From positions 1 to 64,000 of the forward strand of contig JANWYD010000022.1 of the NCBI GenBank assembly GCA_025057155.1: 64,000 nucleotides of DNA, written 5' to 3'. This DNA comes from Chloroflexaceae bacterium (GTDB lineage: Bacteria > Chloroflexota > Chloroflexia > Chloroflexales > Chloroflexaceae). The position numbers were made by a program, and so were the translations under genes. Of the stretch, positions 5,776 through 16,162 are shown piece after piece. The notes beneath the pieces were generated by a model, which saw only the letters and a program-made list of their open reading frames with translations, made no database searches and was not told the origin of the DNA. Positions within the stretch are counted from its first letter, which is position 1. Every line of letters starts with the position of its first letter.

Positions 5776-6365
5776 ACCCACCTGACTCCGCAGCAACCAT
5801 CCCCGCAAACGGGTCATCGCGCTGCCAGCCAACCGACCTTGCAACAGCCCCGTCGTCAACGTCCGGGAGTGTGACGAACCGTTCTGCACGCGCCGCGGCC
5901 CGCCGGCCCGTCCGGAGCCTGATGATCTTTTAACATTAAATCCGGTATCTCCGAACGCTGCGGGCTAAAGCCCTGGCTAAGCTCATAAACGCCCCTGCGG
6001 GGCTTCCACGTCCTAAACAAGGGCTTATGATCATTAAGAAATGAATCTGGTATAGCCCGCGCAGGCGGGCTTCGCAGCTACAGGGCGAATACCAGTGTAT
6101 ATTCTTAATCTTCATTAGCCCGCAGCATACTGCCGCCGCTTCGTCACACCCAACGTCCGGCGGACCGTCGCTCCGCACGGGCGTGGTATTATACAGACAA
6201 GGTGCAGGCCTCTCGTATAAAGCATACCTTACCGCGAATCGCGCGGAGGAACGGTGGTTCTGAAACGCTCCCCACCCTCCGCAATCCCCGCATGTGCCGT
6301 AGAGGCGAACCCTGTCGCTCTGGAAAGGCACCGTGGCCGCGCTGGCTGGAGAACAAGGACAAGCG
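5776..6365. other. Intergenic region with short GC palindromes
   Basis: No credible gene was found in these 590 bp. The region holds several short palindromes of a kind common between genes in this phylum: AGCCCGC/GCGGGCT at 6054-6071, CGCCCCTGCGGGGC near 5990-6003, and GCTGCGGGCTAAAGCCC near 5957. TATTAT at about 6186-6191 is a possible -10 for the amidotransferase-like gene. Open frames here lack similarity or codon bias. Confidence 0.5.
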
Positions 6366-11389: not shown

Positions 11390-11443
11390 TTGACAATCCT
11401 GTCACAATCCTGTCAGATTACACGGCCGCAGCCATGCTATACT
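11390..11443 (+). promoter_or_regulatory. glmS promoter with phased CTGTCA direct repeats
   Basis: An extended -10 TGCTATACT lies at 11435-11443. Upstream, CTGTCAC (11399-11405) and CTGTCAG (11410-11416) are 11 bp apart, with a weaker TTGACAATCC just before. Seven-base direct repeats separated by 4 bp resemble a PhoB-type box, but the gap to the -10 (21 bp) is about twice the classical one. Transcription would begin near 11450, about 72 nt before the ribozyme cleavage site. Confidence 0.5.
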
Positions 11444-11521
11444 TGGCCATACAATGCGCGCTAATACAGGTTGCGCGGGGAACGCAACCAGGAGGAAGAC
11501 CGGACCAGCATACTGTACGCA

Positions 11522-11765
11522 AGCGCACGGGCTCCGCTCAATGGCGGAGTTGACGAGGTGGAGGTTCCTCGCCGCGAGGCGAGGCTAAGGGTCAGACAGG
11601 GTCGCAGGCAGCCTGCGACCCTCCGGTCAGGTCAGGCGGGTCATCCGCCTGGCGCCTGCCGGTGGCCCGAACATCGAGAGATCAGCGGATGCCTCCCAGG
11701 CGCCGGCGCCGCCTGTGAGCGGATGGAACAACGCCTCCCGGCAACGGGCAGGACAAAGCCAGCCG
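11522..11765 (+). ncRNA. glmS ribozyme: glmS ribozyme (glucosamine-6-phosphate-activated) with core insertion
   Basis: Self-cleaving leader RNA of glmS. The predicted cleavage is A11522|G11523 before GCGCACGGGCTCC. P2 pairs CTCCGC (11532-11537) with GCGGAG (11544-11549). The invariant AGTTGACGAGG follows at 11548-11558, then TGGAGGTT. The downstream half, ATCGAGAGATCAGCGGATG with CCTCCC (11673-11697), restores the pseudoknot pairing GGAGG/CCTCC. P3 is AGGCG/CGCCT, and a CCCG-GCAA-CGGG hairpin sits near 11737-11748. AGCC at 11757-11760 can close P1 with GGCT. Known examples join GGTT and ATCGAGA directly or nearly so; here 106 nt intervene (11567-11672). Position upstream of glmS supports the call. 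Confidence 0.85.
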
Positions 11766-12100
11766 CAGCGACCCCCCGATCACATTTCCCCACGAATTGA
11801 AACCCTGACCCAGGACGCATCGCGCCCGACGCTGATCGGGCTTGCACCGATGCGCCATACCAGGACTCTGCCCGATGCGAGGGCGGACATGGCTGCGCGC
11901 TCGTGAGAACCCCCTGCGATTGGGCATGGCGAAGCGGGATAACCGTCTGCGCGCCCCCGCTGCCGGGAGATGCGTCTGTGCGCTCGCCAGCCTTATTCCG
12001 GTGCGGCCCCGCAAGCCCTGACGAGACGCAGTCTGGTTGCAGCGCCAGCCTGCCGGTGCGGGGCGGGCATACCTTGGTCATCATCAGGAGGAACACAGAC
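11766..12100. other. Long glmS leader downstream of the ribozyme
   Basis: About 335 nt separate the ribozyme core from the glmS ATG. No gene is supported here. AGGAGG at 12086-12091 is a strong ribosome site 9 nt before the ATG. The 3' domain of the ribozyme may extend slightly into this part. Confidence 0.5.
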
Positions 12101-13951: not shown

Positions 13952-14284
13952 GGCGACCTGCATCGAGCGCATCGGCCCCAATTCACGGAGCTTCTCGGAA
14001 CGCCATCTGCGGCAACCCGCGGGCAGCGATCCAGCATCCCGTATCACATCATCCGGCAGGGGCATGGGGAACGCAGATGTCCCCATCCCCTTTCAACCGC
14101 CCGGTTTTTCTCCCGCCAGCGCCCGGCGACGTGTACGTTTTGCCACAGGCCGTGGCGAGAGCATCACACAATTCGGCGGCAGGTCTGTTATCATGAGGAG
14201 AAGCTGAACGACGCCGTAGCGGCGGGATGTGTGGAGCGCAGGTCTCCCGCATCCCGCAAGTTGGTTGTGCGCCAGAGTCTGGCT
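13952..14284. other. Intergenic, glmS to archease gene
   Basis: 333 bp without a supported gene, strong palindrome or clear terminator. TTATCA near 14188 is a weak -10 candidate for the archease-rtcB pair. Confidence 0.35.
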
Positions 14285-14698
14285 ATGGACAACGAGTGCG
14301 TCTACGAGGAACTGGCCCATACCGCCGATGTGGGGATGCGCGTGCGCGCGCCGACCCCGGCGGCCCTGTTCGCCTGCGCAGCGCGGAGTCTCATCGCGCT
14401 GGCCGGCGCCACCCCCGGCGAACCCGCAGAGCGGCGGCAGGTGAGCGTCGAAGCCGTTGATGCCGAGAGCCTGCTGGTGGAGTGGCTCAACGAGGTGCTC
14501 TATCTCTGCGAGAGCACCGGCGCGGTCGTCGCCGACGTGCTGGTTACGACGTGGACGCCCACCAGGATCGTGGCCGACGTGCGTCTTGCTCCCCCGGCGA
14601 CCCCGCCGCGGGGAGCGATCAAGGCGGTCACCTACCACCGTATGCGGCTGGCCGAAACGCCGGAGGGCTGGCTGGCTGAGTATTATGTTGATGTCTAG
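14285..14698 (+). CDS. Archease, RtcB cofactor
   Basis: Small acidic protein (137 aa) that helps RtcB load GMP and turn over. It begins MDNECVYEELAHTADVGMRV, a classic archease N-terminus with the metal-binding Asp in HTADVG. It continues with EAVDAESLLVEWLNEVLYL and ends GAIKAVTYHRMRLAETPEGW...YYVDV, where the Asp near the C-terminus is the other expected ligand. The stop overlaps the ribosome site of rtcB, so the two are tightly coupled. The ATG at 14285 is chosen by family N-terminus. Confidence 0.93.
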   Translation: MDNECVYEELAHTADVGMRVRAPTPAALFACAARSLIALAGATPGEPAERRQVSVEAVDAESLLVEWLNEVLYLCESTGAVVADVLVTTWTPTRIVADVRLAPPATPPRGAIKAVTYHRMRLAETPEGWLAEYYVDV

Positions 14699-14710
14699 GG
14701 AGGCGCCGTG

Positions 14711-16162
14711 ATGATCACCAAACGCGATCTCCGGCCCCTGGGGGGGGACCTCTGGGAGATCCCCGTCGGATTTCGTCGCGATATGCGTGTGCCGGCGCGG
14801 ATCTACGCCAGTGAAGCCTTGCTGGACCACGCCCTGGAGGATCTGAGCCTTCAGCAACTCGTCAACGCGGCGACGCTGCCCGGAGTGGTGGCCTACACCC
14901 TGGCCATGCCCGACATTCATCAGGGCTACGGCTTTCCCGTCGGCGGCGTCGCGGCGATGGCCCTGCCTGATGGCGTCATCTCCCCGGGGGCCATTGGCTA
15001 CGATATCAACTGCGGCGTGCGCCTGCTCGCCGCCGACCTTGACGCAGAGCAGGCCGCGCCTTACCTGGATGAGCTTGCTGACACCCTCGACCGGACCTGC
15101 CCCAGCGGTACTGGACGAGGGGGCCGTTTTCGCCTGAGTGATACTGAGCTTGACGAGGTGCTGGCGGAGGGCGCCCGCTGGTGCCTGCGTCACGACCTGG
15201 CTACCGAGCACGACCTGGAACACACCGAGGAAGGGGGCTGCATGGCCGGGGCCAACCCGGCGCGGGTCAGCCCGCGGGCCCGCGATCGCGCCCGCGACCA
15301 GCTCGGGACGCTGGGCGCCGGAAACCATTTTCTTGAAGTGGATCGGGTGGCGCAGGTGCACGATGCCGCCATCGCCGCGGCCTACGGGCTGCGCGAGGGG
15401 CAGCTCGTCGTGCTGATCCACTGTGGCTCGCGGGGGCTAGGGCATCAGATCTGCACCGATTACGTGCGTGACTTCCAGCAGGTCGTGCAACGCTACGACA
15501 TCAGCCTGCCCGACCGCGAGCTGGTCTGCGCGCCGCTGAGCGCGCCAGAGGCTCAGGCCTATATTGAAGCTATGCACTGCGCCGCCAATTTTGCCTTTGC
15601 CAATCGGCAGACCCTGGCCGCGCTCGTGCGCGAGAGCTTCACCCGCGTCTTCGCCCGGCGCGGGCTGCCCGCCGGTCTGCGGCAGGTGTATGACGTGGCC
15701 CATAATATGGGCAAAATGGAGGAACACCGGGTCAACGGAAAGCGGATGCGGGTCTGCGTTCATCGCAAAGGGGCCACGCGGGCCTTTGGTCCCGGTTCGC
15801 CGGAGATCCCTGCGGATTACCGGCCCTACGGGCAGCCGGTGCTGGTGCCTGGCTCGATGGGTACAGCCAGTTATGTGCTGGCAGGAACGGAACACGCCAT
15901 GGCGGTGAGCTTTGGTTCAACCTGCCACGGGGCCGGGCGCATGCTCAGCCGCACGGCGGCCAAGCGCCAGATCCAGGGAGAACAACTGCGCAAACAACTG
16001 AGCAAGCAGGGCATCCACGTGCGCGCCGGGAGCATGGCCGGCCTGGCCGAAGAGGCCCCCTTCGCCTACAAATCGGTAGATGAAGTGGTAGCAGTGGTGG
16101 ACCGGGCCGGGCTGGCGCGCATCGTCGCCCGCCTGGAGCCGTTGCTGGTGGTGAAGGGGTAG
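14711..16162 (+). CDS. rtcB: RNA-splicing ligase RtcB (3'-phosphate/5'-OH ligase)
   Basis: GTP- and Mn-dependent ligase that seals RNA 2',3'-cyclic phosphate or 3'-phosphate ends to 5'-OH ends. The 483-aa product has the metal-site motifs [12 protein letters not shown] (about residues 95-106), [13 protein letters not shown] and [10 protein letters not shown]. It also has a guanylylated-His region in [11 protein letters not shown] near residue 400. GGGAGG sits 7 nt before the ATG at 14711 (a GTG at 14708 is possible but too close). The start is 12 nt after the archease stop. The bacterial archease-RtcB pair is generally linked to RNA repair; no RtcR regulator or RtcA cyclase is nearby. Confidence 0.96.

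Follow-up and report, generated by a model that had tools for sequence, protein, structure and literature searches.

The leader of the glmS gene in a Chloroflexaceae bacterium raises the question of how a glmS ribozyme could hold 106 additional nucleotides within its core, and of what these nucleotides are. The gene lies in a 64,000-nucleotide stretch of contig JANWYD010000022.1, which was analysed as a whole and is referred to here as the window. Ribozymes of the glmS family cleave themselves with glucosamine-6-phosphate (GlcN6P) as cofactor and thereby lower glmS expression. The RNA in the window is almost certainly a glmS ribozyme carrying a real conserved domain. It belongs to a Chloroflexota subtype with a two-hairpin accessory domain at J2/2.1 of the core, the features of which are compiled in Table 1.

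Table 1. Features of the glmS leader in the window and of related leader RNAs in Anaerolineae-like genomes (the arrow marks the predicted cleavage position)
Feature	Position	Strand	Basis or remarks
glmS ribozyme, whole	11511-11775	+	RF00234 positions 1-167; R1 over 11523-11702
Predicted self-cleavage site A↓G, context CAA↓GCGC	11522-11523	+	sequence aligned to RF00234
P2.2 5' strand GCGCACG	11523-11529	+	pairs C2-G56, G3-C55, C4-G54, G7-C52
P1 hairpin	11531-11550	+	RF00234 and R1 alignments; P1 covaries in 18- and 90-sequence alignments
TGACGAGG motif	11551-11558	+	sequence
GACGAGG, P2.1 5' strand and active-site G	11552-11558	+	sequence; roles from PMC11602151, PMC7125110
P2 5' strand GGAGG	11560-11564	+	sequence, RF00234, 90-sequence alignment
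Hairpin A of the insertion, 7 bp, GCGA loop	11567-11584	+	covariation, 90 sequences
Linker CUAA	11585-11588	+	conservation in 90 sequences
Hairpin B, branched 80-nt element in the window	11589-11668	+	closing-helix covariation (90 sequences); genus-level structure
Inner hairpin of B, 11 bp, the palindrome noted earlier	11598-11622	+	folding and genus comparison
GAAC 3' of hairpin B	11669-11672	+	GAA nearly invariant in relatives
AUCGAGA, P2.1 3' strand (UCG 11674-11676) and following loop	11673-11679	+	sequence, RF00234
CAGCGG, P2.2 3' strand	11683-11688	+	sequence, RF00234
GCGGATG motif	11685-11691	+	sequence
P2 3' strand CCUCC	11692-11696	+	sequence, RF00234, 90-sequence alignment
P3 and P4 domain, GCAA L4 loop, purine-rich internal loop	11697-11766	+	RF00234 alignment
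glmS coding sequence, 616 aa	12101-13951	+	TIGR01135 771 bits, NF001484 793.5 bits
glnA-leader RNAs, Anaerolineae-like genomes	L264:442-546, L260:485-589, L215:301-406, L218:317-411, L221:308-405, L268, L246, L294		
Ada/Ogt-leader RNAs	L262, L257, L265, L243, L269, L253, L266, L220		GCGRCUG, UCGG for UCGA

The ribozyme is located upstream of a full-length glmS gene. The Rfam covariance model RF00234 matched it over its full length with 111 nt skipped mid-match, at 36.0 bits (E 1.9e-6), one bit under the curated cut-off of 37; the score falls just below the cut-off because the Rfam model does not describe the 106-nt insertion. No glmS was reported from the window at the RF00234 gathering threshold, and no glmS match was reported by a whole-genome RF00234 search at E <= 0.001. 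A clade model, R1, was seeded with 18 sequences aligned by MAFFT without structure and detected a single copy in the source genome (105.7 bits, E 9e-21). The first-pass annotation had recognized a glmS ribozyme from its motifs, and this identification is borne out: every core motif that it named, including ATCGAGA, GCGGATG and CCTCC, lies where it was placed, and both the full-length model match and the downstream gene agree with it.

All core pairs are retained, and a double pseudoknot composed of P2 (GGAGG/CCUCC), P2.1 (CGA/UCG) and P2.2 (CGC/GCG plus G7-C52) can be formed. The GGAGG/CCTCC pairing, previously described as an intact pseudoknot, is indeed intact but constitutes helix P2 of this double pseudoknot, not a separate one. 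P2.1 is formed by CGA of ACGAGG pairing with UCG of AUCG (PMC11602151, PMC7125110 numbering). The active-site guanine motif ACGAGG is present at 11553-11558, the role of its guanine being that described in PMC11602151, and position 5 of P2.2 is an A opposite A53 (published numbering, PMC7125110). No pair of P2.1 or P2.2 varies among the 18 aligned sequences, and covariation is therefore uninformative on these two helices. For P3.1 (L3 with the 3' tail), inspection of the window sequence by eye revealed no clear complementarity longer than 2-3 bp. Judged from these elements, the RNA possesses the parts needed for cleavage with GlcN6P as cofactor and looks like a genuine self-cleaving glmS ribozyme, with self-cleavage predicted.

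The insertion occupies 11567-11672, as annotated before. It lies in J2/2.1, where it follows the P2 5' strand and UU and precedes the P2.1 3' strand, and it folds into hairpins of its own at -71.5 kcal/mol compared with -48.3 kcal/mol for shuffles (z -6.4). The stem GGGTCGCAG/CTGCGACCC is found at the position assigned to it (11599-11607/11613-11621) but is longer than was described, with 11 bp (11598-11608/11612-11622). Besides this palindrome, the insertion contains the conserved hairpin A. Ninety distinct carrier sequences aligned with R1 share the order GGUU, hairpin A, linker, hairpin B, GAA and AUCG. Hairpin A is 15-19 nt long (18 nt in 64 of the 90), whereas hairpin B ranges from 11 to 114 nt and is little conserved beyond its closing stem. 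The linker is CUAA in 66 sequences and UUAA in 14, and GAA follows hairpin B in 86. The loop of hairpin A is of the GNRA type in 58/90 sequences, compared with 3/60 hairpin B loops and 6/90 P1 loops.

Double changes were observed at all seven hairpin A pairs and all five pairs of the hairpin B closing stem in both alignments, and the covariation score of the 18-sequence seed was reached by none of 500 shuffles. In the 90-sequence alignment, which is fitted to the model, 97.9% of cells are paired, versus 68.2% after shuffling and 38-55% after sliding; hairpin A pairs are paired in 98.7%. Rfam models, applied with E values up to 1 allowed, detected no other RNA family inside the insertion. The insertion is an inherited module, not a captured palindrome.

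The 90 carrier sequences come from Chloroflexota (Chloroflexales, Anaerolineae and Ardenticatenia). RF00234 matches were found in 105 of the 158 genomes of the class; in the window's order the extra RNA is located at exactly J2/2.1, while ACGAGG and UCGA are separated by 10-11 nt in those other families of the class that were read. The joiner in outgroup ribozymes is only a few nucleotides, in line with the earlier statement that GGTT and ATCGAGA are adjacent or nearly so in usual examples. A pattern scan over 84,980 species genomes yielded 42 loci, including Chloroflexus islandicus, Roseiflexus, Oscillochloris, Anaerolineae and Ardenticatenia. All but one are titled as Chloroflexota groups and carry the insertion; the exception, titled Negativicutes, is without it. 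Among 400 Chloroflexota genomes, about 74 have the domain, and the RF00234 cut-off is exceeded in about 39 of these, so that annotation with the standard model overlooks about half of the domain-bearing ribozymes, for which the insertion provides the explanation. R1 detected ribozymes in 106 of 348 Bacillota genomes, all at <= 57 bits and spanning 68-117 nt; these are read as lacking the domain, judged from span and score. Ribozymes without the domain also occur in several other sampled Chloroflexota families. Two members of the phylum, L143:1513-1636 and L075 (G090), lack the J2/2.1 domain and have a different insertion in the P2.1-P2.2 loop.

A GlmS protein tree of 127 rows requires two changes of the insertion label, compared with a mean of 41 after shuffling, and 70 of the 72 carriers fall in one clade (support 91), on what is a quick tree with some long branches. 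This supports essentially one origin of the domain, followed by descent with glmS. The comparison of related glmS leaders that the first-pass annotation had proposed yielded insertion-free relatives, but the insertion is not strain-specific: it is spread over the order and Anaerolineae, and is common to much of the phylum. No account of a J2/2.1 insertion in Chloroflexi, Roseiflexus or Chloroflexus glmS was found in the literature covered, which excludes the McCown 2011 survey and McCown 2012; novelty therefore carries the caveat that the 2011 survey may already depict the insertion.

The domain probably acts as a tertiary scaffold in which hairpin A docks via its GNRA loop and props up a marginally stable core. 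When GlcN6P is plentiful, cleavage at 11522/11523 would proceed with it as cofactor, and the cleaved glmS mRNA would be expressed less, as expected from the family. P2, hairpin A and hairpin B would meet in a junction made of UU, CUAA and GAA. Hairpin A, with its fixed length and mostly GNRA cap, would point in a set direction and, we infer, dock on another helix. The docked hairpin would brace the P2-P2.1-P2.2 double pseudoknot, much like the P3/P4 domain in the classical ribozyme, and hairpin B would form an outward arm of freely variable size. The window's genus could carry an 80-nt hairpin B because this arm is free in size. The docking reading is suggested mainly by the fixed length and loop of hairpin A beside the size-variable hairpin B, and the glmS double pseudoknot has been described as marginally stable (PMC11602151). 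Counting against it, GNRA loops are also favoured for stability alone, one third of the hairpin A loops are not GNRA, and sister ribozymes without the domain presumably work.

The variability of hairpin B, conserved in little except its closing stem, would equally suit an inert spacer tolerated at an exposed J2/2.1, with the core alone mattering, and long insertions without conservation are in general accommodated at particular sites of riboswitches (PMC2258182). The first-pass annotation had allowed for such tolerance, and all core pairs are indeed formable. Simple tolerance is nevertheless unlikely, as families differ very little in hairpin A size, in its GNRA loop and in the CUAA and GAA strands, and losses of the domain on the GlmS tree are very rare. 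The second control also raised there is possible but quite improbable: the domain would be a sensor tuning cleavage to another ligand, a protein or temperature. The conserved junction adjoins the P2.1 strand lining the cofactor pocket and would be a plausible site of allostery; against this, the insertion matches no other Rfam family, and the few unpaired nucleotides that it conserves are consistent with a structural junction.

The enlarged hairpin B is the window's own peculiarity. Its branched structure is common to four of five genus members; three share the window's form, most of their substitutions affecting one side of a pair and leaving the pairing intact, and the version of a fourth is shorter. 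As the structure is shared within the genus and its sequence occurs once in the source genome, the enlargement is at the genus level, not the strain level. The palindrome forms one arm of this 80-nt hairpin and, at 11598-11622, resembles a repeated intergenic element, but the earlier suggestion that this strain's ribozyme captured one was rejected and is scarcely credible, given the single genomic copy, inheritance within the genus, the covarying hairpins A and B throughout the order and in Anaerolineae, and the few changes on the GlmS tree. Hairpin B is also large, at about 90 nt, in family f2 ribozymes (L051:457-649 and others), which have GCGA for UCGA and hence a changed U in the P2.1 3' strand.

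A change in the core from C-G to A/A at positions 5/53 is common in carriers, and U6 can then pair with A53. A strict link between the insertion and this change was rejected, as C-G or U-A is found at these positions in part of the carriers, and A/A in part of the ribozymes that lack the insertion. A GNRA loop is present at the expected L4 of P4 in at least 75 of 91 sequences, so the domain is an addition and not a replacement in most. In one member, L221:2393-2560 (G430), P1, P2, both hairpins of the domain and a P3-like hairpin are present but P4 is absent; its glmS start codon follows the P3-like hairpin by some 30-40 nt, leaving no room for P4. Such a member would be expected if the domain can carry part of the bracing.

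Second R1 matches in Anaerolineae-like genomes precede genes other than glmS. RNAs with the strand A↓GCGGCUG or A↓GCGACUG were found before glnA (type I glutamine synthetase) in eight sampled genomes, and in the two genomes scanned the downstream genes matched TIGR00653 (534 and 523 bits). RF00234 gave 42.9 bits for one glnA type and 23.7 bits for a second. In about 13 sampled genomes such an RNA precedes the gene of an Ada/Ogt-type protein with AraC and methyltransferase parts, a few members having a strand that is altered or was not recovered by the pattern. The two Ada/Ogt types tested were not detected by RF00234. The Ada/Ogt RNAs of L257 and L262 lie just downstream of 6S RNA, and in L262, the one scanned, a terminator-like hairpin separates the RNA from the Ada/Ogt gene. 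Both groups keep the two-hairpin domain, with modest covariation of its helices, and by eye P2.2 in the GCGRCUG RNAs is still formable if its bulge shifts to position 4.

GlmS uses glutamine as its amide donor, and glutamine synthetase makes this nitrogen donor. We hypothesize that GlcN6P controls glnA, which would make sense because of this role of glutamine, and the glnA-leader RNAs make the prediction that GlcN6P also limits glnA directly testable. Tentatively, and with rather less confidence than for scaffolding itself, the domain can be proposed as a working tertiary module that defines the Chloroflexota glmS subtype, its scaffold being redeployed in Anaerolineae-like genomes to control glnA and the Ada/Ogt gene via the GCG(G/A)CUG strand and a position-4 P2.2 bulge. 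If so, the redeployed RNAs would represent a glmS-derived regulatory class that acts on new targets and may use ligands differently.

Archease and RtcB RNA-ligase genes are located 3' of glmS (14231-16162). RtcB joins the sort of ends left by ribozyme self-cleavage. A functional tie was dropped, as this arrangement occurs in one of the 15 neighbourhoods examined, that of a genus member; the contig of another genus member ends just past glmS. Upstream of the ribozyme, a direct repeat of CAATCCTGTCA is present at 11390-11415 in the likely promoter region. Elsewhere in the window, a weak single match to CRISPR-DR28 (6053-6076, minus strand, 38.2 bits, E 0.0023) is probably due to chance.

The core of the glmS ribozyme is sensitive to mutation, and a domain inserted next to the cofactor-pocket strand and retained in much of a phylum represents a natural experiment on a catalytic RNA gaining a stabilising periphery. 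Compared with the RF00234 ribozymes, including those of the T. tengcongensis and B. anthracis crystal structures, the Chloroflexota subtype shares the cleavage site, P1, the P2-P2.1-P2.2 double pseudoknot, the active-site G, P3, P4 with a GNRA L4 and the position before glmS. It differs in having about 40-140 extra nucleotides (106 in the window) between the P2 5' and P2.1 3' strands. It also differs in P2.2, where positions 5/53 are usually A/A and U6 can often pair with A53, while RF00234 has C-G with position 6 free. With UAA on its 5' side and GAA on its 3' side, hairpin B is flanked by strands that match the pattern of the UAA/GAN internal-loop motif; this serves as a lead only, since UAA and GAA here lie within a three-helix junction and the match in geometry is putative. 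Insertions in riboswitch aptamers are likewise stem-loops added at specific sites with the core kept (PMC2258182). Unlike these, the Chloroflexota insertion has a part whose length, loop type and junction strands are themselves conserved over much of the phylum.
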